A stretch of DNA of 64,000 bases from Ascidia mentula (taxonomy: Eukaryota; Chordata; Ascidiacea; Phlebobranchia; Ascidiidae), in the NCBI GenBank assembly GCA_947561715.1, contig OX387199.1, positions 6,577,001 through 6,641,000 of the forward strand, given 5' to 3'. Made by a program: the position numbers and the translations under genes. The notes below the pieces were generated by a model. It saw only the letters and a list, made by a program, of their open reading frames with translations. It was not told where the DNA came from and searched no databases. Positions 1 through 64,000 of this stretch are shown here, in pieces; position 1 is the first letter of the stretch; each line of letters starts with the position of its first letter.

Positions 1-3000
1 TTAAGCTAAGCCAACGTCTGCACAAACCTTCAAAGAATTCTTCTATTTCTGCCGCGGTTCCAAAGTTTTCGCAAGTCTCTCCACCAGGACAGGTCTTATC
101 ACCAAGATTCATGTAAGTGAATGCCTTGAACACGTAGGTTTTATTCGGGCGTAGCCCACGGTAAGTGTACGTGAACACATCTTGACCAGGAAATGGTATC
201 ACCTTTAACGAAATGAGGAAACATTTGTTGGTCTGTTATGTCAGAAACGACACTCAAATACAACGAGTTCGCAAGGCCTGCAAGTTTATATTTAACATGT
301 CAAATATATTAACATTGTAATAGAATACATGCAGTAGGGTACAGAAGCACTACAGCATTAGGGGATGTTGTGGTCACACTATATGCGAACCATTGCGGTC
401 TCTTTGCATATGAGCACAACTAACAATCAAACCATGCTGTAAATCCTGAACAACTTTTACACATGGATTTTACCTCAACTGCCTTTGAGTGAAAGCCGGT
501 TTGATTCTCGTACAACACCAAGTATTTGTCAGGCAAGCGGTTTTCAATGTTGTCTACGACATGAGGTGCTTGCCATTGTAACATCACCGTTATTGTGTGG
601 TCCTTGTGATTTTGGAATGCTTCGAGCATTGTGAAGTTGATTGGTGGTCCCGATGACGATGTCAAGTCTAGGTTAAGATATGAATTTTTGCATCACGGAC
701 CAATTACTTAACTCGTTTCAGATGTATTGAAATCATTACAATAGCGTGAAGCACATCAAAGTTTAATGAATTGATTTTTTTTGTATTTTGGCATCTTTAG
801 ATCCCGCAAAAGCGGATTTCATTTACAAATATATGAGACATAAACTCTTAAACTTCACTGTGTCGTTAACTGGTGCAGGAATCTTCTCTTGTCATGGCTG
901 TTGTAACATGCACTTTACCAAACGTTTCAAAACCAAAGAAATGTCCAACAATACAACTCACTACTGAGTACTTGTTCACTGCGACAATACTTGTAAGCTG
1001 CTTGCTCGTCTACCGGATGCTTGTTGATGAGGTGATAGCCACAGAATAGGTAGATGTCGCTGCTATGTTGAGTTTTACCAAAAACTCGTCTTCCACGGTA
1101 CCCGAAAATGTTAAAATGATACGAACGACCGAATCGGATAGGAAACGTGATGTTGGTTTGGTTCTGTAATCAGCAACCATTTGGGGTCAAATAAACTTAC
1201 ACAAACAATTAGTTGGGTTTGAGTTGTAATTCGTGTTTTGTTTTTTCATCGTAGGCTGTGGAATACGGACTATACCATTTAAAACACCAGGCAAATAAGG
1301 AAATCAATTTTTTAATATATTCATTTCAGGTGGAAACCAGCACGCGTGCCATTTTTTAAACAAAGGCGTGCCAAATTTGGTGGTTAACCAAAACCGACAT
1401 AAATTCCGCGAAAATAAAACGAATCCAACGTCGCATTTGTCGTCGACCACTCTATATGTGGAAATCATGAGTGTTGTCTCATTTCAGTATCGTCCTGTCT
1501 GGCAGGATGGTTGGTCATATATCCGGAAATTATTATTGGGGCATTTGGTGAGTACTAGCATTGCGCATGTAATCGGAAATACCTTCATTATGGCCTTTAT
1601 TTGTCCCATTGGACAGGGCGGATCAACATAAGTGGCTGTAACGCAGATTTCTTCACTTTTGCAACCCTGTAGATCAACTGACTCACACTGGTAGGGGCAC
1701 TCCACATAATCCCCATTAACGTTCGTCACCCACATTTTCATGCCTATCATGGATTGGCAGTAGTGGTCGTGGAGGTCGTAGTAATAATCCGAGCCTGCAA
1801 CAGATTGATAAACTAAAGACAATTTGTAACAAACTGTTTTTGGCAGACTATTTCGAATGGTTTTGTGGCACACGAGTCAACCTGAAGGTTTTTTATAAAA
1901 AAAGAATCAAACTGACCAACTTGATGTCTTATTTCGATATTTGAATTTCATTGTTAGTTCTCAAAAGTTTGTGTTTTTAAACCACACGAAACTTGTTCAC
2001 TCTATGCTGTACAGTAAGCCTTTCTCTAATTTATGTAGATATACTCGCCTTTGGCTGCAATGTGGTTGTCCCGGTCGAAAAAACAGTACATAAAACCATC
2101 GTAATCCTCATCTAAAAACCAAAATACTCAACTCTTTCGGTATTTGAAACCACACTCAATACTTAATTGCACAGAAAACACTTAACTATAACTTTGCCCA
2201 CTTTGAAATAACTGTATATTTTTTTATGCGTTAAATTCCTATGACTTTGAAAATCTTCGTATGCAGCATGTCGTGTTTGTTTATTTGTACTCAAAAGACT
2301 GTGATTTCTATTTACTTTCCACTGTCCAGTTGAAGGTGACGCTGAGTTTAACGGTCGAGAGGTTTTTGTTACTGGGAAGGTACAGTTCAGGGTAATGGGA
2401 TATCTGGATTTTCTTCAAGTCTCCAACCCCTGTTGGTATAACACTAAGATTAAAGCATATCATATAATTACTACCTCACCTATTCTTGATATACCGACCA
2501 TTGCAAATATCATACATTCTACAGATGTATTTTTTTTACCCATCCGCATACTATTAGACCTTTATATATTCTTTGGAAGCAATCATGCAATTAAACAGCA
2601 TTTTTAAAAACCGTTGCACTTCTTTATGTCCCAGACATTTGTGTCGGGTGTCGCGTACAACTTGTCGCTTTGTGCGTTTTCTCACTATTTGGTGCACCAT
2701 TAGTTTTGAGTAAACTTGTTATCCCAGAAATACGTCATTCATGTAGTTTGCGGCTTTATTTTAATAGAAAACCAAAGGCTAAGATTTGTTAGATTGAATG
2801 AGCGTCCAATTTTAATATAAATTATGATATTTTGCAGTGGACTTACGATCTTCATTTGAACAATTGTTTGAGGTCCGTTGTGCCTCGGACGTGGCCACTG
2901 GTAAAATGCAGAAACAGCTAAACGTGGAATGTTTCCACATCCTGTATTAAACTACATCTGTGGTTGCTGCAAAAAGTGTTTTTTTGTCTCTTTCAACAGA

Positions 3001-3362
3001 ATTTCCTCACGTATATTATTAGTTGTACAAGGACTAAAGCTTGACAACTTACGAATTTAGCATTATTGCATATCTACTGAGTAGAGACATTAGCTCGCAC
3101 AAATCACTCAGCTGTAAGTTGCATCCTGGAGCATTTTTCCAAGCTTACTTGCTGCGCCATTCCTAACTAATTCCTTTTGAAGTACAACATTATATGAAAA
3201 CGATGACTAAGCCATGCAGGCAAACAGCTATCACTTGTATACTTGTCTGCGGTGGCGCTTTTAACTGGAAATGTGTCTTTTTTCGTCTCACTGTACCGAA
3301 ACCGCAATGGAGTGCAGCCAACGCTACTCGTACCTGGAACATAGGAAATGGTAAAATCCCAT
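1..3362 (-). CDS. G1: EGF/FN3 receptor paralogue, 5' part only (exons 1-8)
   Basis: This gene runs off the left edge, so only its N-terminal half is seen. Exons on the minus strand, in order, are 3362-3334, 2917-2847, 2429-2316, 2111-2049, 1794-1583, 1163-962, 667-474 and 202-28. Exon 1 starts at an ATG and is only 29 bases long. Joined to exon 2 it gives a signal peptide (MGFYHFLCSS then CFCILPVATSEA). Exons 3-6 encode the cysteine-rich, N-glycosylation-rich segment of module I, and exons 7-8 an FN3 domain with the LQWQAP and GLRPNKTY motifs. All exon lengths and phases match the complete paralogues. Exon 4 ends at a GC donor. The FN3 loop carries the short NQTG version. The sequence is nearly identical to the 5' half of G6 (49654-52986), so G1 may be a kinase gene whose kinase lies off the window. 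That last point is inference. Confidence 0.85.
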
Positions 3363-4418: not shown

Positions 4419-7400
4419 TTACTCATTGACAATGCAGAGTGGGATTTCTTCACGTGCTGCATTCAATGACATCGACGCTCTGTAACCAAAATTATTCAAA
4501 AATCGACATCTGCCTTTTGGTAATCCACCCACATATTTGTATTGGAAACTTACTTTCTCATTCGTTTTCGTCGACGTCTGATGACGAAGAACATAATAAG
4601 AAACACAGTAATCACACATACGGTCACAAGAACAACGATCACGGGGTTTATCATTTTCCTACAGCTGTTGTATCCATCACCGGTGTAACCCTCGCTGTAA
4701 AGAATATTTATGCTTATATGGCAATCTTTGAAGCGTTATTTAGTATTCAAATTGAAAACAAAACAATTTGTTAGGAATATAAACAAAAGAGCGGCCTTGA
4801 ATGCAACTCATTGTGGTGAATTTGCAGTCGCAATCCGAAACGTTACACCACGACCGAACAACTGTTTGGAACTAATATTGCTGCTCTCGATGTGGCGAAA
4901 TCATGAAAAAAACAATATACAGCCAGCAATAATGCCAAGCTAGATTGCCTTTGGTTTAGGCATTTTAATGCAACGTTGCGTAAATGTGTTTGTGCAAGTA
5001 GCTGTTTTTAAACAGAATTGTGATCAATTTACATTGTTGCGGGCACTGTGATCAAAGTGTAGATGGGATGGTTTTAAAAATGCGATCCAGGCTGCTAATA
5101 AAGCAGACGACATCCTTTGGCTTTAAAGAAACTGCTCGATGTCGTTTATGTTCTTAATATTCCATGCACAGAAAAGCTAACGAAAGCTAACTTACTCGCA
5201 AGAGCAATCATAACCTAGTTCGGGTGCTGGCCTGTCTTTGCATATTGCAGTCGTAGCACATTTAGCTGTAGATCCGTGACAGGCGTTGTAGTCTTTGCAG
5301 CCGATCCCGCCAATGAACTGATCCACCCCGTCACCACTGTAGCCGGGTTTGCAGGTGCAGTTCAAAATAGAACGATCGTTGTTGAGAACCTCACAATATG
5401 CATGTGGATCGCAGTGACGTTCTTTCACAGTTTCGTCGACTGGACAGGGATTCCAATCTAAACAGAATGATTTGATTGAAGTTTTTCCTGATCATTTTGC
5501 GGCTGAAATATATAAAGCAGAGTTCAAGAACCACCAAATGCACCGAGAACCAAATGCAAAAAGTAAGAAACAAACCTTAAATACAAAAACGTTTTTCCAA
5601 CTAAAGTATCAAAATGTAATTTTTGCGACACAGATATCACAAAACTATTTTTAAGCGGGTATTCTTTAGTTGGCCTTTTATTGCTATAATGATTATTTGT
5701 TACCTATTTCCTTCTGATATCATATATTGGAAAACTTTTGAAACGTAAATCGTGATTAGAAATGATTTGTTAGATCTTCAGAATCGAATTCTCAAACCTT
5801 CAAAGAAGTTTTCCAAGTATGCGGGGGATCCATAGTTTTGGCACCAGTGGTCGTTCCCAATACAAACTTTATCCAGGTATATGTACGCAGTCACGAGGAA
5901 CAAGTATGTGGCATTCGGAGGTAGTTTTTGATACGTGAAGTTGAACAAAGTTTCTCCGTCCTGCGCTTTGATCTTTCGAAGTGAAACAGATGTAAAAAAT
6001 TGGTCGGTTTCACCACGACGAGGTTAAATGTTACGTGTACGAATAAATGTACTATTTTCACAAATGCATCTTGTATTTCAACTTTTATTCTAAGATCGAT
6101 ACGGTTTACTGTAATTAATGAAGTATTCAATGGAAAAACACTTTCGGCATTGAATGATTTCTTAGGTTGTCGTGTGTATACTTACTACCATTGGTCTTGA
6201 GAATGTGTCATCCACTATGTAGCGCAAACGATACTCAGGAGGTAAACTGTTGGTAATAACATCGAGAATGTGAGGTGCTGTCCACTGCAAGACTACAGTT
6301 ATTGTATGGTCTGTGTGGTTGCGGTACCAATTGACCATTGTGAAGGCTAGTGGTGGCCCCGAAGACGAAGTCAAGTCTAAATTACAAATATATTGAATAT
6401 GGTTCTTTGTAGTCAAACAAACGCTGACATGGTAGACGTTGGTCATATTATTCTAAGAGTATTCAAAAGTAGTAGATATAAATTGTTGCAGCCTAAACAA
6501 GAAATGTACACTCACTACTCAGTACTTGTTCACTGCGACAATACTCGGAAGCTGCTTGCTCGTCGACAGGATGCTTGTTGATGAGGTGATAGCCACAAAA
6601 CAGATACACGTCATGGCCATAATTCCTGTCTACGCCAATCATGCATCGGCCTCTATAAGCCATAATGTGGAATGTGTAGGAACGACCGAACCGGATGGGA
6701 AACGTGATATTTGTTTGATTCTGAAAACAACCGTAAAATGTTTGGAATCAACGTGAATCCAAGGCAGCACCTTTATGAGGATGTTTCTGTAAATTTTGTG
6801 TTGTTTGGGGCAATTTGGTGTTTTTTTGCTGGGTGGAAATATTAAAGCAATTTTTATGTAATTTTTTTTGCAATTTAACATTTGGACCTTCTTATACCTT
6901 CATGATTGTTTTTATCTGTCCCATTGGACAGGGCCGGTCCACTTCTTCCAATGCAATAACGCAACTTTCCGAGCTTGTGCAGTTCGTCACGTCCTCTGCT
7001 TCGCAAGGGTATTTGCACTCCACAAGTTCTCCTTCAACGTTTGTGACCCACATTTTCATGCCGATCAACGCCTGGCAGTATTCGTCCTTCTCATATTCGT
7101 TTTCTATTAACAAAATATGGTTGTAGACATCATCGCGTGATTATAAAAACGAAGGCTCTCTGCTTTGTCGTTTATGAGCACTTTCCGCAGCACTTAATAT
7201 GGATCTAAAGATCTAAGTAATTCAATGCGAATTAATTTCAAGTGATTAATTTCCACTTAAGCGTAAGCAAGTGCTGCATTATGAATGACAAAATCCTGCT
7301 TCATATGTTGTAATGTGCCTTGAAATGTTTTTTGTTTTAAATTTTGATTTGATGTACTTGCCGTAGGCCAATGTATCGTCGTCACTGTCAAAAAAGCAAT

Positions 7401-10400
7401 ACATGAATCCGTCGTGATCGTCTCCTAAAACAAATCGATGTTTAAGCGATGGGGCTAATAATGATTTTTAGTGAGCGCAGACAGGGCCACTGTTTCCGCA
7501 AAATACCGTTCAGTAAAATTTATTTTTGCAGTCGGCAATCAGATGAAAAGTCTGCAATAAGACGTGTGCTGAGTTAAATGAAAATCTTTGAAACAACTCT
7601 GTGTAAGACTCTCTTGACACCTTCGCAGAGAATGCATAACAAAATTACCACATATGATAAGCATCTGTCTGCAGTTTATACACAATTAACACTACCCACC
7701 CTTCACTGTCCAGTTGTAAGTAACGCTTAGTTTTGCGGTCGAGTGGTTGGTATGATCGGAAAGGTGAAGATTAGGGTAATAGTATGTCTCGACAACCATC
7801 AATTCATCATTCTGTATACTGGGACTTTGGCAACCAACTCCCCCAATGGATTGGTCAATCCCATCACCGCTGTAGCCAGGTTTACAGGTGCAGTTTATTC
7901 GTGAACGATCTTTGCTCAGGATCTCACAAAACGCATGCGGATCGCAATGACGTTCTTTTACTTCTCTTTCTGTTGGGCAGGGATTCCAATCTGTGGAAAA
8001 GTATGCGAATGAAGATGTCATCATACCAGAATAGAAAAGACGACTTTCTACTGCAATTACACCTCAGCAACCGCCACCAACACAGACACTTTATGTTAGT
8101 CAGTGGTTTTTGATAATTTATTTTCAATTCTTTCATAATTTTAATTGAAATTATTCATTCAAGGTGTTTTTAAGCTAAGCCAATGTCTGCACAAACCGTC
8201 AAAGAATTCTTCTATTTCTGCCGCAGTTCCAAAGTTTTCGCAAGTCTCTCCATGAGGACAGGTCTTATCATTAAGATTCATGTAAGCTAATGCCTTAAAC
8301 ACGTAGGTGTTATTCGGGCGTAGCCCACGGTAAGTGTACGTGAACACATCTTGACCAGGAAATGGTATCACCTTTAACGAAATGTGGAAATATTTGTCGG
8401 TCTTTTATGTCAGAAACGACACTCAAATACAACGAGTTCGCACGGCCTGCACGTTTATATTTAACATGTCAAATATATTAACATTGTAATAGAATCCATG
8501 CAGTAGGGTACAGAAGCACTACAGCTTTAGGGGATGTTGTGGTTACACAATATGCGAACCATTGCGGTCTCATTGCATATAAGCACAACTAACAATCAAC
8601 CCATGCTGTAAATCCTGAAGGACTTCTACACATGGATTTTACCTCAACTGCCTTTGAGTGAAAGCGGGTGTGATGTGGATCTTTCACGTACAACACCTTG
8701 TATTTGTCAGGCAAGCGGTTTTCAATGTTGTCTACGACATGAGGTGCTTGCCATTGTAACATCACCGTTATCGTGTGGTCATTGTGATTTCGGAATGCTT
8801 CGAGCATTGTGAAGTTGATTGGTGGTCCCGATGACGATGTCAAGTCTAGGTTAAGATATGAATTTTTGCATCACGGACCAATTACTTAACTCGTTTCAGA
8901 TGTATTGAACACATTACAATAGCGTGAAGCAAATCAAAGTTTAATGAATTGTTTTTTTTCGTATTTTGGCATCTTTGGAACCCGCAAAAGCGGATTTCAT
9001 TTACAAATAATATGAGACATAAACTCTTAAACTTCACAGTGTCGTTAACTGGTGCAGGATTCTTCTCTTGTCATGGCTGTTGTAACATGCACTTTACCAA
9101 ACGTTTGAAAACCAAAGAAATGTCCAACAATACAACTCACTACTGAGTACTTGTTCACTGCGACAATACTTGTAAGCTGCTTGCTCGTCTACTGGATGCT
9201 TGTTGATGAGGTGATAGCCACAGAATAGGTAGACATCGCTACTATGTAGAGCTTTACCGAAAATTCGTCTTCCGCGGTACCCGAAAATGTTAAAATAATA
9301 CGAACGACCGAATCGGATAGGAAACGTGATGTTGGTTTGGTTCTGTAATCAGCAATCATTTGGGGTCAAATAAACTTACACAAACAATTAGTTGGGTTTG
9401 AGTTTTAATTCGTGTTTTGTTTTTCCATCGTAGGCTGTGGAATACGGACTATACCATTTAAAACACAATGCAAATAAGGAAATCAATTTTAAAAATATAT
9501 TCATTTCAGGTGGAAACCAGCACGCGTGCCATTTTTGAAACAAAGGTGTGCCAAATTTGGTGGTTAACCTAAACCGACGTAAATTCCGCGAAAATAAGAC
9601 GAATCCAACGTCGCATTTGTCGTCGACCGTTCTATATGTGAAAATCATGAGTGTTGTCTGATTTCAGTATCGTCCTGTCTGGCAGAATGGTTGGTCATAT
9701 ATCCGGAAATCATTATTGGGGCATTTGGTGAGTACTAGCATTGCTCATGTAATTCGAAATACCTTCATTATGGCCTTTATTTGTCCCATTGGACAGGGCT
9801 GATCAACATAAGCGGCTGTAACGCAGATTTCTTCACTTTTGCAACCCTGTAGATCAACTGACTCGCACGGGTAGGAGCACTCCACATAATCCCCATTAAC
9901 GTTCGTCACCCACATTTTCATGCCTATCATGGATTGGCAGTAGTGGTCGTGGAGGTCATAGTAATAATCCGAGCCTGCAACAGATTGATAAACTAAAGAC
10001 AATTTGTAACAAACTGTTTTTGGCAGACTATTTCGAATGGTTTTGTGGCATACGAGTCTTCCTCAAGATCTTTTATTGAAAAAGATTCAAACTGACCAAC
10101 TTGATGTCTTATTTCGATATTTGAATTTCATTGTTAGTTCTCAAAAGTTTGTGTTTTTTAACCACACGAAACTTGTTCACTCTGTGCTGTACAGTAAGCC
10201 ATTCTCTAATTTGATGTAGATATACTCGCCTTTGGCTGAAATGTGGTTGTCCCGGTCGAAAAAACAGTACATAAAACCATCGTAATCCTCATCTAAAAAC
10301 CAAAATACTCAAATCTTTCGGTATTTGAAACAACACTTAATACTTAATTGCACAGAAAACACTTAACTTTAACTTTGCCCAGTTTGAAATAACTGTATAT

Positions 10401-11483
10401 TTTTTTTTATGCGTTAAATTCCTATGACTTTGAAAATCTTCGTATGCAGCATGTCGTGTTTGTTTATTTGTACTCAAACGACTGTGATTCTATTTACTTT
10501 CCACTGTCCAGTTGAAGGTGACGCTGAGTTTAACGGTCGAGAGGTTTTTGTTACTGGGAAGGTACAGTTCAGGGTAATGGGATATCTGGATTTTCTTCAA
10601 GTCTCCAACCCCTGTTGGTATAACACTAAGATTAAAGCATATCATTTAATTACTACCTCACCTATTCTTGATATACCGACCATTGCAAATATCAGCAGAC
10701 ATTCTACAGGTGCAATTTTTTACCCATCCGCATACTATTAGACATTATATTCTTTGATAGCAATCGTTGTGCGTTTTCTCACTATTTGGTGCACCATTAG
10801 TTTTGAGTAAACTTGTTATCCCAGAAATACGTCATTCATGTAGTTTGCGGCTTTATTTTAATAGAAAACCAAAGGCTAAGATTTGTTAGATTAAACGAAC
10901 ATCCAACTTCAATACAAGTTATGACATATATTTTACAGTTGACTTACGATCTTCATTTGAACAATTGTTTGCAGTCCGTTGTGCCTCGGACGTGGCCACT
11001 AGTAAAATGCAGAAACAGCTGAACGTGGAATGTTTCCACATCATGTATTAAACTACATCTGTGGTTGCTGCAAAAAGTGTTTTTTGTCTCTTTCAACAAA
11101 ATTTTTTTCTTTTTCAACAGAATTTCCGAACGTATATTATTAGTTGTACAAGGATTAAAGCTTGACAACTTACGGATTTAGCATTATTGGATATCTACTG
11201 AGTAGAGACATTAGCTCGTACAAATCACTCAGCTATAGGTTGCAGCCGGAAGAATGCTTACAAGCTTACGTACTGCGCCATTCCTAACTAATACATTTTG
11301 AAGTACAACAATATATGAAAACGGTTACTAAGCCATGCAGGCAAACAGCTATCACTTGTATATTAGTCTGCGGTGGTGCTTCTAACTGGAAATGTGACTT
11401 TTTTCGTCTCACTGTACCGAAACCGCAACGGAGTGCAGCCAACGCTACTCGTACCTGGAACTGAGGAAATGGTAAAATCCCAT
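4419..11483 (-). CDS. G2: kinase-less transmembrane EGF/FN3 receptor
   Basis: Complete 17-exon gene predicting about 887 residues. Exons: 11483-11455, 11018-10948, 10611-10498, 10292-10230, 9974-9763, 9342-9141, 8845-8643, 8371-8197, 7990-7700, 7424-7362, 7103-6898, 6720-6516, 6376-6186, 5972-5798, 5457-5196, 4694-4554 and 4479-4419. Order: signal peptide (about residues 1-22), module I with FN3, EGF, module II with FN3, two EGF domains, a single transmembrane helix rich in V/I/L, a basic stop-transfer stretch (RRRRKRMRK) and a tail ending IPLCIVNE before TAA. All phases agree and I found no frameshift. The extracellular part has many NxT/NxS sites. There is no kinase exon before the next gene starts at 3362. 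A candidate polyadenylation signal (AATAAA on the minus strand) is at 4004-4009. Likely role: surface binding protein or decoy for the ligand of the kinase paralogue (inference). Confidence 0.88.
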
Positions 11484-25670: not shown

Positions 25671-25737
25671 TTACTCATTGTCAATGCAGAGTGGGATTTC
25701 TTCACGTGCTGCATGCAATGACATCGACGGTCTGTAA

Positions 25738-25764
25738 ACAAAATGGCAATCTTTGCAGCGTTAT
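25738..25764 (-). other. Deletion scar of the transmembrane exon in G4
   Basis: In G7 and G8 more than 200 bases containing exon 16 lie between the exon 17 acceptor side (CGGTCTGTAAACAAAA) and the sequence GGCAATCTTTG. In G4 these two pieces are directly joined, removing exon 16 and parts of both introns. Confidence 0.75.
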
Positions 25765-27128: not shown

Positions 27129-27444
27129 CAAAAGAAGTAACAGACGATCACACCAGTATAAGATCTTTATTTAAGAAACATTAATTTCGCCTAATGGCAT
27201 CTTCAATTTCTGTCGTAGAAAGTAGATTTTTTTATCGTTTTAATCGCTTTGTTTTTTGTCGTGGTAGCCAGTAAGTGGACTTACTGTGGAGTAATTTTGT
27301 TGTTGTTTTTGTTTTTGTTGTGGTTTTAAGTAATTAATTTAATTTTTTATTGCTATTCTATTTTCAGACAGAAATTGAAGATGCCTTTTGTCGAATTCTT
27401 AAACAAAGATCTTATACTGGTGTGATTGTCTGTTACTCCTTTTG
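27129..27444. mobile_element. Foldback-type element in G4 intron 13
   Basis: Two long arms in inverted orientation (27129-27214 and 27367-27444), both beginning CAAAAG(A/G)AGTAACAGAC and holding ACCAGTATAAGATCTTT and GGCATCTTCAATTTCTGTC, separated by about 150 bases of T- and G-rich DNA. It is absent from the same intron of all other copies. The neighbouring 27063-27128 also differs from them. No clear target duplication was found. Confidence 0.7.
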
Positions 27445-45144: not shown

Positions 45145-45758
45145 CTAAAATTTAGTGATGAAAGCCGTTATCTTTAAATTGCCTGAGCGAGTCAAATCAC
45201 AACCTGAGAAAAGTCTTAAGTAAGCGGTTAGTGTCAATGTTTATGTTTTTAATGGCAAAGGTGAATTCATCGGTGCGGTTTCCACGATAGTTGTACGTTT
45301 ATTTAATCCTAAACCTCAGAACAGTTTACGTTAAAGTTATTTTGGAAAAAGGCAAAATTCTTGCCCCAAACTATATATAAAGTAATGGCAAACCGTGTAA
45401 AGCCAGGTTGTTTCGATCTATTTCCCACTTTTGTCCAAATACAGGACCCATGTTAGTCATTTGAAGGTGGTTTTCGAACTGAGAGTAGTTAGAAAAGGCG
45501 CCAGGTCTGCCAGAGATTCGCCGGCGACAAACCGCGATTGGTCAAATATGAGTCTCCTTTATACAACAACAAATATAAATATACCCATCATATTATAGCA
45601 GCTCTTGTAAGCAATATTACAAAATCATCTGCCACTGAGTCTTTGTTGGCCGTAAGATAAAAACTTTCGTTCAGCAAATTTTTTGTGAAAGGTTTGTCCA
45701 ACAATAGTAATCAATTCACGGGCGTTTGCAAGTTACCTATTGTCAATGCAGAGTGGAA

Positions 45759-45795
45759 TTACATACCACCAACTACATTCAATGACATTGACGGT
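45759..45795 (-). other. Possible alternative terminal exon in the G6 juxtamembrane intron
   Basis: Homologous to exon 17 of the kinase-less genes. Here the acceptor (TTTGGTTACAG) is intact and in phase with the transmembrane exon. Using it would add KPSMSLNVVGGM and a TAA stop, giving a kinase-less isoform from a kinase gene. A GT also lies after GGTG (45767), but splicing from there is out of phase with the juxtamembrane exon. Use of the exon is inference. Confidence 0.4.
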
Positions 45796-48700: not shown

Positions 48701-51700
48701 CAAGTGATTAATTTCCACTTAAGCGTAAGCAAGTGCTACATTGTGCATGACAAAATGTTGTTTCATATGTTATAATGTTCCTTGAAATGTTTTTTGTTAT
48801 AAATTTTGATTTGAGGTACTTGCCGTAGGCCAATGTATCGTCGTCACTGTCAAAAAAGCAATACATGATTCCGTCGTGATCGTCTCCTAAAACAAATCGA
48901 TCTTTAAACGATGGAGCTAATAATGATTTTTAGTGAGCGCAGACAGGGCCACTGTTTCCGCAAAATTCCGTTCAGTAATTTTTTTTTACAGTCGGCAATA
49001 AGATGAAAAGTCTGCAATAGGACGTGTGCTGAGTTAAATGAAATTCTTTGAAACAACTCTGTGTAAGACTCTCTTGACACCTTCGCAGAGAATGCACAAC
49101 AACATTACCCACATATCATCTGTCTGCAGCTTATACACAATTAACACTACCCACCCTTCAGTGTCCAGTTGTAAGTAACGCTTAGTTTTGCGGTCGAGTG
49201 GTTTGTATGATCGGAAAGGTGAAGATTAGCGTAATAGAATGTCTCGACAACCATATCAATTCATCATTCTGTATACTGGGACTTTGGCAACCGACTGCCC
49301 CAATGGATCGGTCAATCCCATCACCGCTGTAGCCAGGTTTACAGGTGCAGTTTAATCGTGAACGATCTTTGCTCAGGATCTCACAAAACGCATGCGGATC
49401 GCAATGACGTTCTATCACTTCTCTGTCTATTGGACAGGGGTTCCAATCTGTGGAGAAGTAAGCGAATGAATATTTCATCATACCAGAATAGAAAAGACGA
49501 CTTTCTACAGCAATTTCACCTCAGTAACCGCCACCAACACAGACGCTTTATGTTAGTCAGTGGTTTTTGATAATATATTTTCAATTCTTTCATAATTTTA
49601 ATTGAATTTAATCATTCAAGATGTTTTTAAGCTAAGCCAACGTCTGCACAAACCTTCAAAGAATTCTTCTATTTCTGCCGCGGTTCCAAAGTTTTCGCAA
49701 ATCTCTCCACCAGGACAGGTCTTATCATTAGGATTCGTGTAAGCGAATGCCTTAAACACGTAGGTGTTATTCGGGCGTAGCCCACGGTAAGTGTACGTGA
49801 ACACATCTTGACCAGGAAGTGGCATCACCTTTAACGAAATGTGGAAACATTTGTTGGTCTGTTATGTCAGAAACGACACTCAAATACAACGAGTTCGCAA
49901 GGCCTGCACGTTTATATTTAAAATGTCAAATATACTATCATTGTAATAGAATACATGCAGTAGGGTACAGAAGCACTACAGCATTAGGGGATGTTGTGGT
50001 TACACTATATGCGAACCATTGTGGTCTCATTGCATATAAGCACAACTAACAATCAACCCATGCTGTAAATCCTGAAGGACTTCTACACATGGATTTTACC
50101 TCAACTGCCTTTGAGTGAAAGCCGGTTTGATTCACGTACAACACCAAGTATTTGTCAGGCAAGCGGTTTTCAATGTTGTCTACGACATGAGGTGCTTGCC
50201 ATTGTAACATCACCGTTATTGTGTGGTCATTGTGATTTCGGAATGCTTCGAGCATTGTGAAGTTGATTGGTGGTCCCGATGACGATGTCAAGTCTAGGTT
50301 AAGATATGAATTTTTGCATCACGGACCAATTACTTAACTCGTTTCAGATGTATTGAACACATTACAATAGCGTGAAGCACATCAAAGTTTAATGAATTGA
50401 TTTTTTTTGTATTTTGGCATCTTAAGAACCCGCAAAAGCGGATTTCATTTACAAATATATGAGACATAAACTCTTAAACTTCACTGTGTCGTTAACTGGT
50501 GCAGGAATCTTCTCTTGTCATGGGTGTTGTAACATGCACTTTACCAAACGTTTCAAAACCAAAGAAATGTCCAACAATACAACTCACTACTGAGTACTTG
50601 TTCACTGCGACAATACTTGTAAGCTGCTTGCTCGTCTACCGGATGCTTGTTGATGAGGTGATAGCCACAGAATAGGTAGACGTCGCTGCTATGTTGAGTT
50701 TTACCAAAAACTCGTCTTCCGCGGTACCCGAAAATGTTAAAACAATACGAACGACCGAATCGGATAGGAAACGTGATGTTGGTTTGGTCTGTAATCAGCA
50801 ACCATTTGGGGTCAAATAAACTTACACAAACAATTAGTTGGGTTTGAGTTGTAATTCGTGTTTTGTTTTTTCATCGTAGGCTGTGGAATACGGACTATAC
50901 CATTTAAAACACCAGACAAATAAGGAAATCAATTTTTTGATATATTCATTTCAGGTGGAAACCAGCACGAGTGCCATTTTTGAAACAAAGGCGTGCCAAA
51001 TTTGGTGGTTAACCTAAACCGACGTAAATTCCGCGAAAATAAGACGAATCCAACGTTGCATTTGTCGTTGACCACTCTATATGTGAAAATCATGAGTGTT
51101 GTCTCATTTCAGTATCGTCCTGTCTGGCAGGATGGTTGGTCATATATCCGGAAGTTATTATTGGGGCATTTGGTGAGTACTAGCATTGCTCATGTAATCG
51201 GAAATACCTTCATTATGGCCTTTATTTGTCCCATTGGACAGGGCTGATCAACATAAGCGGCTGTAACGCAGATTTCTTCACTTTTGCAACCCTGTAGATC
51301 AACTGACTCACACGGGTAGGAGCACTCCACATAATCCCCATTAACGTTCGTCACCCACATTTTCATGCCTATCATGGATTGGCAGTAGTGGTCGTGGAGG
51401 TCGTAGTAATAATCCGAGCCTGCAACAGATTGATAAACAAAAGACAATTTGTAACAAACTGTTTTTGGCAGACTATTTCGAATGGTTTTGTGGCCCACGA
51501 GTCAACCTGAAGGTCTTTTATAAAAAAAGATTCACACTGACCAACTTGATGTCTTATTTCGATATTTGAATTTGATTGTTAGTTCTCAAAAGTTTGTGTT
51601 TTTAAACCACACGAAACTTGTTCACTCTATGCTGTACAGTAAGCCATTCTCTAATTTATGTAGATATACTCGCCTTTGGCTGCAATGTGGTTGTCCCGGT

Positions 51701-52986
51701 CGAAAAAACAGTACATAAAACCATCGTAATCCTCATCTAAAAACCAAAATACTCAACTCTTTCGGTATTTGAAACCACACTCAATACTTAATTGCACAGA
51801 AAACACTTAACTATAACTTTGCCCACTTTGAAATAACTGTATATATTTTATGCGTTAAATTCCTATGACTTTGAAAATCTTCGTATGCAGCATGTCGTGT
51901 TTGTTTATTTGTGCTCAAAAGACTGTGATTTCTATTTACTTTCCACTGTCCAGTTGAAGGTGACGCTAAGTGTAACGGTCGAGAGGTTTTTGTTACTGGG
52001 AAGGTACAGTTCAGGGTAATGGGATATCTGGATTTTCTTCAAGTCTCCAACCCCTGTTGGTATAACACTAAGATTAAAGCATATCATATAACTACTACCT
52101 CACCTATTCTTGATATACCGATCTTTGCAAATATCATACATTCTACAGATGTATTTTTTTTTACCCATCCGCATACTATTAGACCTTTATATATTCTTTG
52201 GAAGCAATCATGCAATTAAACAGCATTTTTAAAAACCGTTGCACTTCTTTATGTCCCAGACATTTGTGTCGGGTGTCGCGTACAACTTGTCGCTTTGTGC
52301 GTTTTCTCACTATTTGGTGCACCATTAGTTTTGAGTAAACTTGTTATCCCAGAAATATGTCATTCATGTAGTTTGCGGCTTTATTTTAATAGTAAACCAA
52401 AGGCTAAGATTTGTTAGATTAAATGAGCGTCCAACTTTAATATAAATTATAATATCTTGCAGTGGACTTACGATCTTCATTTGAACAATTGTTTGGAGTC
52501 CGTTGTGCCTCGGACGTGGCCACTAGTAAAATGCAGAAACAGCTAAACGTGGAATGTTTCCACATCCTGTATTAAACTACATCTGTGGTTGCTGCAAAAA
52601 GTGTTTTTCATCTCTTTCAACAAAATTTCCTCACGTATATTATTAGTTGTACAAGGACTAAAGCTTGACAACCTACGGATTTAGCATTATTGCATATCTA
52701 CTGAGTAGAGACATTAGCTCGCACAAATCACTCAGCTGTAAGTTGCATCCGGGAGCATTTTTCCAAGCTTACTTGCTGCGCCATTCCTAACTAATTCCTT
52801 TTGAAGTACAACATTATATGAAAACGATGACTAAGCCATGCAGGCAAACAGCTATCACTTGTATACTTGTCTGCGGTGGCGCTTTTAACTGGAAATGTGT
52901 CTTTTTTCGTCTCACTGTACCGAAACCGCAATGGAGTGCAGCCAACGCTACTCGTACCTGGAACATAGGAAATGGTAAAATCCCAT

Positions 52987-54038: not shown

Positions 54039-57000
54039 TTACTCATTGTCAATGCAGAGTGGGATTTCTTCACGTGCTACATTCAATGACATCGACGGTC
54101 TGTAACCAAAATTATTCAAAAATCGACATCTGCCTTTTGGTAATCCACCCACATATTTGTGTTGGAAACTTACTTTCTCATTTGTTTTCGTTGACGTCTG
54201 ATGACGAAGAACATCAGAAGAAACACAGTAACCACACATACGGTCACAAGAACAGCGATCACGGGGTTTATCATTTTCCTACAGCTGTTGTATCCATCAC
54301 CGGTGTAACCCTCGCTGTAAAGAATATTTATGCCTATATGGCAATCTTTGAAGCGTGATTCAAATTAAAGAAAAAACAATTTGTTAGGAATATAAACAAA
54401 AGAATGCAACTCATTGTGGTGAATTTGCAGTCGCAATCCGATGCGTTACACCACGACCGAACAACTGATTGGAACTAATATTGCTGCTCTCGATGTGGCG
54501 AAATCATGAAAAAAACAATATACAGCCAGCTATAATGCCAAGCTAGATTGCCTTTGGTTTCGGCATTTTGATGCAACGTTGCATCAATGTGTTTGTGCAA
54601 GTAGCTGTTTTCAAACAGAATTGTGATCAATTTACATTTTTGCGGGCACTATATCAAAGTGTGGATGGGATGGTTGAAAATAGCAGAAGACATCCATTGA
54701 CTTTAAAGAAACTGCTCGATGTCGTTTATGTTCTTCATATGTCATGCACAGAAAATCTAACGAAATAGTTCTGAAACTTACTCGCAAGAGCAATCATAAC
54801 CTAGTTCGGGTGCTGGCCTGTCTTTGCACTTTGCAGCCGTAGCGCATTTAGCTGTACATCCGAGACAGGCGTTGTAGTCTTTGCAGCCGGTCCCGCCAAT
54901 GAATTGATCCACACCGTCACCACTGTAGCCGGGTTTGCAGGTGCAGTTTAAAATAGAACGATCTTTGCTGAGAACCTCACAAGAAGCATGTGGATCGCAG
55001 TGACGTTCTTTCACAGTTTCGTCGACTGGACAAGGATCCCAATCTAAACAGAATGATTATGTTGAATCTAATTCAGGTAATCTTTTTGCGGAAATAATAT
55101 AAAATAGAATACACAAACCCCAAATGCATCGAGAACCTAATGCAAAAAGTAAGACAGGGGTCTCAATGCAAAAACGTTTTGCCAAATGAGTTACATACGT
55201 GTACAGTACTTATGTAGTCTCCAAGAAAAGGATATCACTAACTAGTAGCGGGTATTTATTGGCCTGCCCTTTATCGCTGTGATGATTGCTTGTTTTGTTA
55301 TAACCTTTAGAATATAATTCTCAAACCTTCAAAGAAGTATTCCAAGTAAGCGGGGGTTCCATAGTTTTGGCACCAGTGGTCGTTCCCTATACACACTTTA
55401 TTCAGGTTTATGTACGCAACCACGGAGAACAAGTATGTGACATTCGGAGGTAGTTTTTGATACGTGAAGTTGAACAAAGTTTCTCCGTCTTGCGCTTCGA
55501 TCTTCGGAAGTGAAAGGGATGTTTAACATGACGAAGTTAAAATGTTTTGCAGTGCTGCTGCATTATTTTTAATGATGCATCTACGTGCTCTTCTCTTCGA
55601 TGTTGACAATTATTTTAGCTGACGTAAATGACCGAACTTATATTCTAAGATCGATAAGGTTTACTTTAATTTATTTAGAATTAAGTGGAAAAAAAATTTC
55701 GAATTTGAGTGCAGATTTCATCTTGTCACGGCGCTGTGTGTACTTACTAACATTGGTCTTGAGTATGTATCATCCATTAAGTAGCGCAAGCGATACTCAG
55801 GAGGTAAACTGTTGGTGATAACATCGAGAAGGTGAGGTGCTTTCCACTGTAAGACTACAGTTATTGTATGGTCTATGTAGTTGCGGTACCAATCGACCAC
55901 AGTGAAGTTTAGTGGTGGCCCCGAAGACGAAGTCAAGTCTAAATTACAAATGTATTGAATGTGGTCCGCGTTCTTTGTGGTAAAACAAATGTAGACATGG
56001 TAGACGTTGGTCATATTATTGAATATTTAAAGGTAATTAAAATTACCAGTAAGCCTTTTTGTGCTCCAGTTTTGAAAATATCATTACAAGATACAATTTG
56101 GTCTTGAAAATATAAATCCTTGCAGCCTGGACAAGAAATGTACACTCACTACTCTGTACTTGTTCACGGCGACAATACTCGGAAGCTGCTTGCTCGTCGA
56201 CAGGATGCTTGTTGATGAGGTGATAGCCACAATACAGATACACGTCATGGCCATAATTCCTGTCTACGCCAATTATACATCGGCCTCTATAAGCCATAAT
56301 GTGGAATGTGTAGGAGCGACCGAACCGGATGGGAAACGTGATACTTGTTTGATTCTAAAAACAACCGTAAAATGTTTAGAATCAACGTGAGTCCAAGGCA
56401 GCACCTTTTTGAGGATGTTTATGTCAATTTTGTAGTTTTTTGGGGCAATTTTTTTTTTCGCTGGGTGGAAGGAAATTTTTAAGTAACTACAATTCAACAT
56501 TTGGACGTTCTTATACCTTCATGATTGTTTTAATCTGTCCCATTGGACAGGGCCGGTCCACTTCGTCCAATGCAGTAACGCAACTTTCCGAGCTTGTGCA
56601 GTTCCTCGCATCCTCTGCTTCGCAAGGGTATTTGCACTCCACAAGTTCTCCTTCAACGTTTGTGACCCACATTTTCATGCCGATCAACGCTTGGCAGTAT
56701 TCATCCTTCTCATAATTGTTTTCTGTTAAAAAATATGGTTGTAGAAATCATCTCGTGATTTTATAATCAAAGGCTCTCTGCTTTGTCGTTTATGCGCACT
56801 TTCCGCAGCACTTTGTATAGATCTAACGATCTAAGTCACTGTTTCTTAACCTTTTTTGGAACACGAACCCCTAAAACATTCTTTGAAAAGCCATGGCCCC
56901 TTTGCAAGAAACACATTGCAAATGTCGAAAAATTAAAATTCGTGGACAGCGAAACCGCTTACGGACAGAGGAAAATACGTGGATTTTCGGAATAATTGTA

Positions 57001-60000
57001 TTTCGTTTCATGGACCCCTTAATGCATCTTCTCGGACCCCTTGGGGGTTCATGGACCCCAGGTTAAGAACCCCTGATCTAAGTAATTCAATGCGAATCAA
57101 GTTCAAGTGACTAATTTCCACTTAAGCGTAAGCAAGTGCTACATTATGCATGACAAAATCTTGTTTCATATGTTGTAATGTGTCTTGAAATATTCTTTGT
57201 TTTAAATTTTGATTCGAGGTACTTGCCGTAGGCCAACGTATGGTCGTCACTGTCAAAAAAGCAATACATGAATCCGTCGTGATCGTCTCCTAAAACAAAT
57301 CGATGTTTAAGCGATGGAGCTAATAATGATTTTTAGTGAGCGCAGACAGGGCCACTGTTTCCGCAAAACACCGTTCTGAAAAATTTTTTTTTTGCAGTTT
57401 GCAATAAGATGAAAAGTCTACAATAAGACGTGTGCTGAGTTAAATGAAAATCTTTGAAACAACTCTGTGTAAGACTCTCTTGACACCTTCGCAGAGAATG
57501 CACAACAACATTACCCACATATGATCAGCATCTGTCTGCAGCTTATACACAATTAACTCTACCCACCCTTTACTGTCCAGTTGTAAGTAACGCTTAGTTT
57601 TGCGGTGGAGTGGTTTGTATGATCGGAAAGGTGAAGATTAGGGCAATAGAATGTCTCGACAACCATCAATTCATCATTCTGTATACTGGGACTTTGGCAA
57701 CCGACTCCCCCAATGGATCGGTCAATCCCATCACCGCTGTAGCCAGGTTTACAGGTGCAGTTTATTCGTGAACGATCTTTGCTGAGGATCTCACAAAACG
57801 AATGCGGATCGCAATGACGTTCTATCACTTCTCTGTCTATTGGGCAGGGATTCCAATCTGTGGAAAAGTAAGCGAATGAAGATGTCATCATACCAGAATA
57901 GAAAAGACGACTTTCTACAGCAATTACACCAGAGCCACCGCCACAAGCACAGAAACCTTATGTTAGTCAGTTGTGTTTGTGATTTATTTTAAATTCTTTC
58001 ATAATTCTAATTGAATTTAATCATTCAAGGTGCTTCTAAGCTAAGCCAATCTCTGCACAAACCTTCGAAGAATTCTTCTATTTCTGCCGCAGTTCCAAAG
58101 TTTTCGCAAGTCTCTCCACCAGGACAGGTCTTATCATTAAGATTCGTGTAAGCGAATGCCTTAAACACGTACGTTTTATTCGGGCGTAGCCCACTGTAAG
58201 TGTACGTGAACACATCTTGACCAGGAAGTGGTATCACCTTTAACGAAATGAGGAAACATTTGTTGGTGTGCTATGTCAGAAACGACATTCAAATACAACG
58301 GGATCGAACGGCCTGCACGTTTATATTTAACATGCCAAATATATTAACATTGTAATAGAATACATGCAGTAGGGCAAAGAAGCACTACAGCATTAGGGGA
58401 TGTTGTGGTCACACTATATGCGAACCATTGCGGTCTCATTGCATATAAGCACAACTAACAATCAACTCATGCTTTAAATCCTGAAGGACTTCTACACATG
58501 GATTTTACCTCAACTGCCTTTGAGTGAAAGCCGGTTTGATTCACGTACAACACCAAGTATTTGTCAGGCAAGCGGTTTTCAATGTTGTCTACGACATGAG
58601 GTGCTTGCCATTGTAACATCGCCGTTATTGTGTGGTCCTTGTGATTTTGGAATGCTTCGAGCATTGTGAAGTTGATTGGTGGTCCCGATGACGATGTCAA
58701 GTCTGGGTTAAGAGTTTAATTTTTGCATCACGGACCATTTTCTTAATTCGTTTCAGATGTATTGAACACATTACAATAGCGTGAAGCAAGCCAAAGTTTA
58801 ATGAATTTTTTTTTGCATTTTGGCATCTTTAGAACCCGCAAAAGCGGATTTCATTCACAAATAATATGAGACACAAACTCTGAAACTACACTGTGTCGTT
58901 TACTGGTGCAAAATTCTTCTCTTGTCATCGCTGTTATAACATGCACTTTACCAAACATTTCAAAACCAAAGAAATTTCCAACAATACAACTCACTACTGA
59001 GTACTTGTTCACTGCGACAATACTTGTAAGCTGCTTGCTCGTCTACCGGATGCTTGTTGATGAGGTGATAGCCACAGAATAGGTAGATGTCGCTGCTATG
59101 TTGAGCTTTACCAAAAATTCGTCTTCCGCGGTACCCGAAAATGTTAAAATAATACGAACGACCGAATCGGATAGGAAACGTGATGTTGGTTTGGTTCTGT
59201 AATCAGCAATCATTTGGGGTCAAATAAACTTACACAAACAATTAGTTGGTTTTGATTTGTAATTCGTGTTTTGCACGTTTTCTCAAAGTAGGCTGTAGAA
59301 TATGGACTATACCATCTAAAACAGCATGCAAATAAAGAATATATTTTCAAATTATATTCATTTCTGGTGGAAACCAGCACGCGTGCCATTTTTGAAGCAA
59401 AGGCGTGCCAAATTTGGTGGTTAACCAAAACCGATGTAACTTCCGCGAAAAATAAGACGAATCCAACGTTGCATTTGTCGTTGACCACTCTATATGTGGA
59501 AATCATGAGTATTGTCTGATTTCAGTACCGTCCTGTCTGGCAGGATGGTTGGTCATATATCCGGAAATTATTATTGGGGCATTTGGTGAGTACTAGCATT
59601 GCTCATGTAATCGAAAATACCTTCATTATGGCCTTTATTTGTCCCATTGGACAGGGCTGATCAACATAAGCGGCTGTAACGCAGATTTCTTCACTTTTGC
59701 AACCCTGTAGATCAACTGACTCACACGGGTAGGAACACTCCACATAATCCCCATTAACGTTCGTCACCCACATTTTCATGCCTATCATGGATTGGCAGTA
59801 GTGGTCGTGGAGGTCGTAGTAATAATCCGAGCCTGCGACAGATTGATAAACTAAACACAATATGTAACAAACTGTTATTGGCAGACTATTTCGAATGGTT
59901 TTGTGGCATACGAGTCTTCCTCAAGATCTTTTATCAATAAAGATTCAAACTGACCAACTTGATGTCTTATTTCGATATTTGAATTTGATTGTTAGTTCTC

Positions 60001-61314
60001 AAAAGTTTGTGTTTTTAAACCACACGAAACGTGTTCACTCTGTGCTGTACAGTAAGCCATTCTCTAATTTGATGTAGATATACTCGCCTTTGGCTGAAAT
60101 GTGGTTGTCCCGGTCGATAAAACAGTACATAAAACCATCGTAATCCTCATCTAAAAACCAAAATACTCAAATCTTTCGGTATTTGAAACAACACTTAATA
60201 CTTAATTGCACAGAAAACACTTAACTTTCACTTTGCCCAGTTTGAAATAACTGTATATAATTTTTTTTGCGTTAAATTCCTATGACTTTGAAAAACTTCG
60301 TATGCAGCATGTCGTGTTTGTTTATTTGTACTCAAAAGACTGTGATTCCTATTTACTTTCCACTGTCCAGTTGAAGGTGACGCTGAGTTTAACGGTCGAG
60401 AGGTTTTTGTTACTGGGAAGGTACAGTTCAGGGTAATGGGATATCTGGATTTTCTTCAAGTCTCCAGCCCCTGTTGGTATAACACTAAGATTAAAGCATA
60501 TCATATAATTACTACCTCACCTATTCTTGATATACCGACCATTGCAAATATCAGCAAACATTCTACAGGTGCAATTTTTTACCCATTCGCATACTATTAG
60601 ACCTTATATTCTTTGAAAGCAATCTTTGTTTTCTCACTATTTGGTGCACCATTAGTTTTGAGTAAACTTCTTATCCCAGAAATACGTCATTCATGTAGTT
60701 TGCGGCTTTATTTTAATAGAAAACCAAAGGCTAAGATTTGTTAGATTAAACGAACATCCAACTTCAATACAAGTTATGACATATATTTTACAGTTGACTT
60801 ACGATCTTCATTTGAACAATTGTTTGCAGTCCGTTGTGCCTCGGACGTGGCCACTAGTAAAATGCAGAAACAGCTGAACGTGGAATGTTTCCACATCATG
60901 TATTAAACTACATCTGTGGTTGCTGCAAAAAGTGTTTTTTGTCTCTTTCAACAGAATTTCCTCACGTATATTATTAGTTGTACAAGGATTAAAGCTTGAC
61001 AACTTACGGATTTAGCATTATTGCATATCTACTGAGCAGAGACATTAGAGACAAATCACTCAGCTATAGGTTGCAGCCGGAAGAATGCTTACAAGCTTAC
61101 GTGCTGCGCCATTCCTAACTAATACGTTTTGAAGTACAACATTATATGAAAACGGTTACTAAGCCATGCAGGGAAACAGCTATCACTTGTATATTAGTCT
61201 GCGGTGGCGCTTCTAACTGGAAATGTGTCTTTTTTCGTCTCACTGTACCGAAACCGCAACGGAGTGCAGCCAACGCTACTCGTACCTGGAACTGAGGAAA
61301 TGGCAAAATACCAT
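54039..61314 (-). CDS. G7: kinase-less transmembrane EGF/FN3 receptor, most divergent copy
   Basis: Complete 17-exon gene of about 884 residues. Exons: 61314-61286, 60873-60803, 60470-60357, 60150-60088, 59832-59621, 59196-58995, 58702-58509, 58237-58063, 57857-57567, 57289-57227, 56722-56517, 56354-56150, 55938-55748, 55501-55327, 55043-54782, 54314-54174 and 54099-54039. Order: signal peptide (MVFCHFLSSS plus exon 2), module I/FN3, EGF, module II/FN3, two EGFs, transmembrane helix, basic RRQRKQMRK, short tail ending LCIDNE. All phases agree. The membrane-proximal EGF has an extra cysteine (NACLGCTAKC, codon 54856-54858). The FN3-II half differs more than in other copies (FTVVDWYRNYIDH). Intron 10 carries a hAT-type MITE, and intron 13 is unlike the other genes. 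A candidate AATAAA is at 53627-53632. Confidence 0.88.
56837..57075. mobile_element. hAT-type non-autonomous element (MITE) in G7 intron 10
   Basis: A 239-base insertion flanked by a perfect 8-base target duplication ATCTAAGT (56829-56836 and 57076-57083). The ends are imperfect inverted repeats: CACTGTTTCTTAACC on the left, and CAGGGGTTCTTAACC as the reverse complement of the right end. An 8-base duplication with CAG-like termini is the hallmark of hAT transposons. The other genes keep the empty site (GATCTAAGTAATTC, for example near 20440 and 28600), which proves insertion. It has no coding capacity. Confidence 0.9.
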
Positions 61315-62338: not shown

Positions 62339-64000
62339 TTACTCATTGTCAATGCAGAGTGGGATTTCTTCACGTGCTACATTCAATGACATCGACGGTC
62401 TGTAAACAAAATTATTCAAAAATCGACTTCTGCCTTTTGGTAAACCACCCACATATTTGTGTTGGAAACTTACATTCTCATTCGTTCTCGTCGACGTCTG
62501 ATGACGAAGAACATAAGAAGACACACAGTAACCACACATACGGTCACAAGAACAGCGATCACGGGGTTTATCATTTTCCTACAGCTGTTGTATCCATCAC
62601 CGGTGTAACCCTCGCTGTAAAGAATATTTATGCTTATATGGCAATCTTTGAAGCGTTATTTAGTATTCAAATTGAAAACAAAACAATTTGTTAGGAATAT
62701 AAACAAAAGAGCGGCCTTGAATGCAACTCATTGTGGTGAATTTGCATCAAAGTGTATATGGGATGGTTTTAAATATGTCATCCACACTGCTAATATAGCA
62801 GACGACATCCTTTGGCTTTATAGAAACTGCTCGATGTCGTTTATGTTCTTAATATGTCATGCACAGAAAAGCTAACGAAAGCTAACTTACTCGCAAGAGC
62901 AATCATAACCTAGTTCGGGTGCTGGCCTGTCTTTGCATATTGCAGTCGTGGCACATTTAGCTGTAGATCCGTGACAGGCGTTGTAGTCTTTGCAGCCGGT
63001 CCCGCCAATGAACTGATCCACCCCGTCACCACTGTATCCGGGTTTGCAGGTGCAGTTCAAAATAGAACGATCGTTGCTGAGAACCTCACAATATGCATGC
63101 GGATCGCAGTGACGTTCTTTCACAGTTTCGTCGACGGGACAGGGGTCCCAATCTAAACACAATGATTTGATTGAAGTTTTTCCAGATCATTTTGCGGCTG
63201 AAATACATAAAGCAGAGTTCAAGAACCACCAAATGCATCGGGAACCTAATGCAAAATCAAGAAACGAGCCTTAAAAACAAGAACGTTTTTCCAAGTGCAA
63301 TATCAAAATGTAATCTTTGCGACACAGATATCACAAAACTATTATTAAGATGGTATTCTTTAGCTATGGCCTTTTATTGCTATAATGATTATTTGTTACA
63401 TATTTCCTTCTGATATCATATATTGTAAAACTTTTGAAACGTAAATCGTGATTAGAAATGATTTGTTAAATCTTTAGAATCGAATTCTCAAACCTTCAAA
63501 GAAGTATTCAAAGTATGCGGGGGATCCATAGTTTTGGCACCAGTGGTCGTTCCCTACACAAACTTTATCCAGGTTTATGTACGCAGTCACGAGGAACAAG
63601 TATGTGGCATTCGAAGGTAGTTTTTGATACCTGAAGTTGAACAAAGTTTCTCCGTCCTGCGCTTCGATCTTTCGAAGTGAAACAGATGTAAGAAATTGGT
63701 CGGTTTCACCACGACGAGGTTAAATGTTACGTGTACGAATAAATGTACTATTTTCACAAATGCATCTTGTATTTCAACTTGTATTCTAAGATCGATACGG
63801 TTTACTGTAATTAATGAAGTATTCAATGGAAAAACACTTTCGGCATTGAATGATTTCTTAGGTTGTCGTGTGTATACTTACTACCATTGGTCTTGAGTAT
63901 GCGTCATCCACTATGTAGCGCAAACGATACTCAGGAGGTAAACTGTTGGTAATAACATCGAGAATGTGAGGTGCTGTCCACTGCAAGACTACAGTTATTG
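62339..64000 (-). CDS. G8: kinase-less transmembrane EGF/FN3 receptor, 3' part only
   Basis: The 5' end lies beyond the right edge. Visible exons are 13 (64000-63882, cut by the edge), 14 (63668-63494), 15 (63152-62891), 16 (62614-62474) and 17 (62399-62339). They encode the end of FN3-II, two EGF domains with all twelve cysteines, the transmembrane helix and the short tail (MRIPSMSL ... CIDNE, stop). No kinase exons follow. The next gene, G7, starts at 61314. The sequence is almost identical to the 3' end of G5 (33784-35600), including the I at the tail junction. A candidate AATAAA is at 61947-61952. Confidence 0.87.

Follow-up and report, generated by a model that had tools for sequence, protein, structure and literature searches.

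Why do receptor genes with and without a kinase stand side by side on one ectodomain design in the ascidian Ascidia mentula, and are the kinase-less copies genes in their own right? The locus that raises this question lies in a stretch of 64,000 nucleotides (nt) on contig OX387199.1 (here C52) of assembly GCA_947561715.1, positions 6577001–6641000, hereafter the window, and was followed through 195.8 Mb of genome in 79 contigs. We read it as a single receptor tyrosine kinase (RTK) gene family whose 3′ end appears in two versions, the membrane exon leading either to seven kinase exons or to a short-tail exon and a stop.

The window holds eight head-to-tail units on its minus strand, two of them cut by its edges, with exons numbered e1 to e13 in the ectodomain and membrane part and k1 to k7 in the kinase. 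In window coordinates, they and the parts of them discussed below are as follows.

1 to 2943, continuing to window position −7295, minus strand: unit 1, kinase form with only its 5′ part in the window (e1 2943–2847, e2 2429–2316).
4419 to 11044, minus strand: unit 2, kinase-less membrane form, 844 amino acids (aa), open (membrane exon 4694–4554, tail exon 4479–4419).
13246 to 24359, minus strand: unit 3, receptor tyrosine kinase, 20 exons, 1219 aa, open.
17648 to 17788, minus strand: membrane exon e13 of unit 3, 141 nt, phase 2-2.
17509 to 17571, minus strand: homologue of the tail exon between e13 and k1 of unit 3, with AT in place of the acceptor AG and the kinase-class reading PSMSLNVVGGM and a stop.
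13246 to 17383, minus strand: kinase exons k1–k7 of unit 3, with GRGNFG, VAVK, HGDVATRN and DFG.
25671 to 32493, minus strand: unit 4, no membrane exon, broken, tail exon 25731–25671 retained.
33784 to 40168, minus strand: unit 5, kinase-less membrane form, 844 aa, open (membrane exon 34060–33920).
33784 to 33844, minus strand: tail exon of unit 5, encoding PSMSLNVAREEIPLCIDNE and a stop, with AATAAA 33 nt past the exon end.
42370 to 52568, minus strand: unit 6, kinase form, broken in e4, e7 (+2) and k1 (−1).
54039 to 60899, minus strand: unit 7, kinase-less membrane form, 841 aa, open (membrane exon 54314–54174, tail exon 54099–54039).
62339 to 64000, with e1 at window position 68742, minus strand: unit 8, kinase-less membrane form, 3′ part, open (membrane exon 62614–62474, tail exon 62399–62339).

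The original prediction, which had described a single-strand array of at least eight such paralogues (G1–G8), was recovered unit by unit, including a kinase receptor (G3, now a full model), a damaged kinase copy (G6) and four short-tail membrane receptors without a kinase (G2, G5, G7 and G8, all open). To these we add that G1 is likewise a broken kinase copy, with a −10 indel in e11 and a stop in k2, both beyond the window, as is its kinase. The real number of copies is larger. Probe searches placed the window inside an array of ~340 kb on the minus strand of C52 (~6.534–6.873 Mb) with at least 33 ectodomain copies and at least 13 kinase cassettes at this single locus, both counts being lower bounds. 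Contiguous reading of positions 6517001–6831000, which covers ~297 of the 340 kb, gave 28 ectodomain-bearing units, 17 kinase-less (15 membrane forms and two lacking the membrane exon) and 11 with a kinase. Twelve of the 15 kinase-less membrane units were open (units 6789234, 6780910 and 6758544 were broken), as were five of the ten assessable kinase units, the eleventh being cut by an edge; unit 6722221, with an open frame and two lost acceptors, was counted as broken.

The kinase class is best represented by unit 3, for which exon ends were set by splice sites and phase, starting from minus-strand open frames with EGF, FN3, membrane and kinase pieces. The resulting model of 3660 nt has consistent phases throughout its 20 exons, with one intron (k4/k5) read as GC-AG, and comprises a signal peptide (e1), a first module (e2–e6, closed by an EGF on e7), a second module (e7–e11), a further EGF (e12), the membrane exon and the kinase exons. 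The ectodomain thus consists of two modules, each of a Cys-rich part, FN3 and EGF; the signal peptide and the single membrane segment upstream of the kinase were identified by eye in the spliced model. A Pfam search of the assembled protein, which had been proposed as a check, returned a tyrosine kinase (PF07714, E = 2.4e-74), EGF_3 above the cut-off (1.1e-17) and fn3 just above it (1.6e-5), and no Ig family up to an E value of 1. Among the best 60 of 2425 matches, the PDB chains closest to the kinase were those of EGFR, then FGFR1 and RET, while for the ectodomain module the best PDB match, gp130 at E 0.92, was not significant.

Tyrosine-kinase motifs and receptor ectodomains are treated in PMC8662651. 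In the 11 kinase cassettes of the first 264 kb DFG was kept in all, AAR in ten (unit 3 has ATR) and VAVK in ten, a frameshift removing it in 6661053. The arginine of HRD is replaced in all 11, which read HGD, and in a neighbouring kinase gene (gene B, below), with the catalytic Asp kept. The ratio of nonsynonymous to synonymous variation (pN/pS) was 0.02 in the juxtamembrane exon k1 and 0.29 in the core k2–k6; constraint was lower in k6 (0.72) and in the C-terminal k7 (0.53). As a separate observation, ~0.9 kb of the k2–k3 interval of unit 3 (window 15900–16800) had no match in the other kinase cassettes of the first 264 kb.

In the kinase-less units, e13 (phase 2-2) is followed by a 61-nt tail exon, which encodes PSMSLNVAREEIPLCIDNE or a variant of it before the stop. 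All 14 kinase-less units among the first 24 have AG as the acceptor of this exon, and no loss was flagged in the three later ones. The kinase cassettes hold a homologue of this exon within the e13–k1 intron, which ends in VVGGM and a stop in ten of 11 (6661053 stops earlier) and whose acceptor is AG in seven and lost in four, among them the open unit 3. Across the tail region, 12 of 91 columns fully separate the two classes, which align for a stretch 3′ of the tail and then diverge before k1. An AATAAA stands at +33 nt of the tail exon in nine of 14 kinase-less units versus none of 11 kinase cassettes.

These 3′ ends bear on whether the kinase-less units are genes at all. The original prediction had itself named a case against them, that they are only 5′ exons of one large gene; by gene structure they are separate genes, and we rejected the one-large-gene arrangement as the principal explanation because each unit read starts with a signal-peptide exon of its own and the kinase-less ones also end in a separate tail exon with a stop. 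In clustered protocadherins, alternative 5′ cassettes are spliced to downstream exons, and a comparable arrangement, in which kinase-less ectodomains would be spliced onto a downstream kinase cassette, would suit the e13 donor, whose phase is compatible with the tail exon and k1 alike. It would also suit two membrane-plus-kinase cassettes that lack an ectodomain, one truncated after k3 and the other, open and of 441 aa, immediately following a complete kinase unit. Against it, the 17 kinase-less units read keep their tail exon with an AG acceptor, as detailed above, and the ten complete kinase units read have a signal exon of their own, which together make such splicing very improbable. The 441-aa cassette, a membrane exon with a complete open kinase at the left end of the array (C52:6534068–6537724), is possibly an alternative 3′ cassette of the preceding unit.

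Selection on the kinase-less units was assessed in two sets. Regional pN/pS used 11 kinase-less membrane units labelled as intact, including unit 6758544, which was later found to carry one stop, in e6 to judge by the exon copies dropped, and from which e1 and e6 had already been excluded. Single-exon pN/pS used 12 membrane units and the two without the membrane exon, with 15 exon copies over nine exons dropped from the codon counts; these values, like the indel, fixed-residue and upstream counts below, come from the first 24 units (264 kb) and include the broken copies. Part of the kinase-less ectodomain is under purifying selection, with pN/pS (upper limit) of 0.22 (0.43) in e2–e4, 0.15 (0.34) in e7 and 0.25 (0.49) in e12. 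The ratio was 0.44 in e8–e9, and single exons ranged from 0.16 (e7) to 1.31 (e5). In the 14 kinase-less units, exons had 3.4 gap intervals per kb and introns 26.8; the ten kinase units had 2.4 and 16.1 per kb, respectively. Low pN/pS and few exon indels together argue that the kinase-less units evolve as coding genes.

The same data speak to the view that unequal crossing-over produced the kinase-less units as by-products without a selected role. Broken copies, cassettes without an ectodomain and lesions shared between units all occur in the array, and constraint is weak in four kinase-less exons (pN/pS 1.31 in e5, 0.84 in e10, 0.85 in e11 and 1.01 in e13). Yet the pN/pS of 0.15–0.25 in e2–e4, e7 and e12, the eightfold shortage of indels in exons relative to introns and the open frames of 12 of the 15 membrane units make an origin as mere by-products unlikely, though part of this pattern could be mimicked by concerted evolution from working kinase copies.

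If the kinase-less units are genes, what ties them to the kinase class is the DNA that they share. Among 150 informative residues in e1–e13, not one distinguished the classes as a fixed difference; variation occurred in both classes at 75, in kinase-less units only at 51 and in kinase units only at 22, and two were mixed. In ~1 kb of upstream DNA from 23 of the 24 units, two of 294 informative sites were fixed between classes, one 150-column block of identity 0 being taken as an insertion in one unit. The two ectodomain trees (R1 and R2) each required three class changes versus 7.9 in shuffles and split both classes, so that the classes are clustered but not separate. Both classes thus appear, from these comparisons, to draw on a common ectodomain pool without exact pairs, and the trees and shared variants suggest that unequal crossing-over and gene conversion may keep them on it.

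The most variable parts of that ectodomain are the two FN3 domains, with pN/pS of 0.68 and 0.81 in the kinase-less set. The original prediction of a diversified recognition system finds a suggestion here, FN3 ratios of ~0.7–0.8 standing against 0.15–0.25 in the EGF exons, but not as positive selection, which we do not claim for FN3 because both ratios are below 1 with intervals that include 1. The variability would suit kinase-less forms that act as independent receptors or adhesion proteins, through homophilic contact or as co-receptors acting via a partner, in a recognition repertoire serving, for example, immunity or self/non-self recognition. Kinase-less units also outnumber kinase units (17 versus 11), and one of them, unit 6814314 (C52:6798898–6814314), is an open gene of 1908 aa with five ectodomain modules. 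Four of these are tandem copies of e7–e11, possible because the module phases are 1-1; modules 2–4 are 97.5–99.3% alike and module 1 is 77% like them. Nevertheless, upstream DNA and ectodomain are inseparable from those of the kinase class, variable residues did not cluster significantly in either FN3 domain (P = 0.064 and 0.087), and the FN3 intervals just described do not speak for it, leaving an independent recognition role somewhat doubtful. Probe matches suggest a further unit, of three modules, near 6857–6864 kb.

We therefore return to a role tied to the neighbouring kinase receptors. Given the shared ectodomain and upstream DNA, and known cases such as FGFRL1 and DAF-2B, we see an even chance that the kinase-less units are decoy or ligand-buffering partners of the kinase forms. 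The short-tail proteins would be anchored in the membrane, where they might bind the ligands of the neighbouring kinase receptors or dimerise with those receptors, and might thereby lower, localise or sharpen the signal. According to PMC12026108, FGFRL1 is able to bind FGFs, and its expression in Xenopus embryos antagonised FGFR signalling; like the array's kinase-less units, it is a separate kinase-less membrane-receptor gene that keeps the ectodomain design of an RTK. The array has this arrangement, kinase-less membrane paralogues carrying the ectodomain of their kinase partner. It differs in its domains, FN3 and EGF_3 rather than the three Ig domains given for FGFRL1 in the abstract of PMC3820611, and in number, with many copies alternating with kinase genes rather than one family member, described as multifunctional.

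A second likeness is to DAF-2B of Caenorhabditis elegans, which sequesters ligand from the full receptor and for which the receptor gene itself supplies an alternative 3′ end (PMC7041946), and to Drosophila SDR; both are insulin-receptor ectodomains without a kinase. Those proteins belong to the insulin family, are secreted and come from one isoform or gene, whereas the array forms are membrane-anchored and encoded by separate tandem genes. Truncated receptor-kinase isoforms from intronic polyadenylation, cited in PMC7041946, resemble the array in that its kinase genes hold an intronic homologue of the tail exon, and differ in that its short version sits on genes of its own. In the literature compared, receptor kinases that serve as decoys or are truncated come as single genes or as splice isoforms. 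No such array appeared in titles or abstract openings, which is no proof that none is in print. A large array of alternating, recombining signalling and kinase-less forms with common binding domains would allow a direct test of how decoys evolve in step with receptors, and of whether copy number sets signalling thresholds.

Several observations weigh against a decoy role. The weak constraint in e5, e10, e11 and e13 is one, and part of the constraint signal of the kinase-less units could stem from concerted evolution with the kinase genes. In both classes every unit (25 of 25) has an AATAAA no more than 600 nt from the tail exon, and the polyadenylation argument therefore comes down to the +33 position. 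By eye, the tail contains no recognised motif, which speaks neither for nor against signalling of its own. No identical haplotype was shared across classes in five domain sets (FN3a, e8–e9, FN3b, e7 and e12), so exact ligand matching is not supported. Finally, five of ten assessable kinase units are broken versus three of 15 membrane kinase-less units (Fisher p = 0.19), and with broken units in both classes part of the array is decaying.

A soluble decoy fares less well than a membrane-anchored one. The original prediction included a form without a transmembrane segment (G4, unit 4), and such a form exists, in two of the 28 units read, both without e13; as a working soluble product it does not hold, since neither copy is open. 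By phase, e12 could still join the tail exon, but both copies have lost the e4 acceptor (AG to AC in unit 4) and carry a net +4 indel in e4, with 36 stops in the model, which is why we do not regard unit 4 as an intact soluble form. The two are sisters in the ectodomain trees and hence count as a single event. A soluble form might also arise if e13 were skipped in other units. The predicted decoy system accordingly stands as to separate kinase and kinase-less membrane genes, purifying selection and shared upstream and ectodomain sequence, and falls as to a working soluble decoy.

How the two classes arose is suggested by the kinase genes, where a homologue of the tail exon still follows the membrane exon within an intron: the two forms look like an isoform switch, a former alternative terminal exon that may have been turned into separate genes. 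We tentatively extend this, as a possibility that we would not favour, to a switch now encoded in the genome as two interleaved classes, in which shared upstream DNA and recombining ectodomains would co-diversify decoys and receptors, copy number would set specificity and the decoy-to-receptor ratio, and the split would have arisen again in two genes to the right of the array.

C52 6877.8 to 6882.3 kb (C52:6877800–6882260), plus strand: gene A, one-module ectodomain, membrane exon and a different tail of 23 residues.
C52 6892 to 6907 kb, plus strand: gene B, one-module ectodomain and kinase.

In this diverged pair, too, a kinase-less gene stands beside a kinase gene, although its tail differs from that of the array. 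No kinase was found after gene A and before gene B up to an E value of 0.5, and e4 and e12 of both genes are 37–43% identical to those of the array. The kinase exons of gene B are 63–71% identical to the array in k2–k4 and k6, 38% in k1 and 39% in k7, with k5 at 98%. At the DNA level, k5 of gene B (6906066–6906220) and of unit 3 (window 14236–14082) are 94.8% identical, compared with 65–72% in k2, k3, k4 and k6; as the local alignment ends at the exon ends, this reads as gene conversion, in which the activation segment would have been copied between two loci of inverted orientation.

With respect to the array itself, 300-nt repeats in the window form seven direct copies that are mostly 92–100% identical, with one copy at 74–77% in families D14–D20, and this number and identity exclude chance. 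Among the 20 largest of at least 60 families from the repeat finder, no inverted pair lay in the window. Chance or assembly repeats were likewise set aside as a source of the units, whose copies diverge by several percent and carry distinct lesions. Beyond position 6831000, probes located five more ectodomain places, of which the 5′ part of the rightmost unit was read, and no kinase within the array among the matches listed. The window had no Rfam match at the gathering threshold. Two weak matches to glycoside hydrolase 6, a family present in tunicates, exceeded the Pfam cut-off elsewhere in the genome (C71:8046784–8047068 and C52:18248788–18249069), and the left flank of the array (C52:6527001–6537000) contains ordinary genes, with thiamin pyrophosphokinase domains and a tetraspanin.

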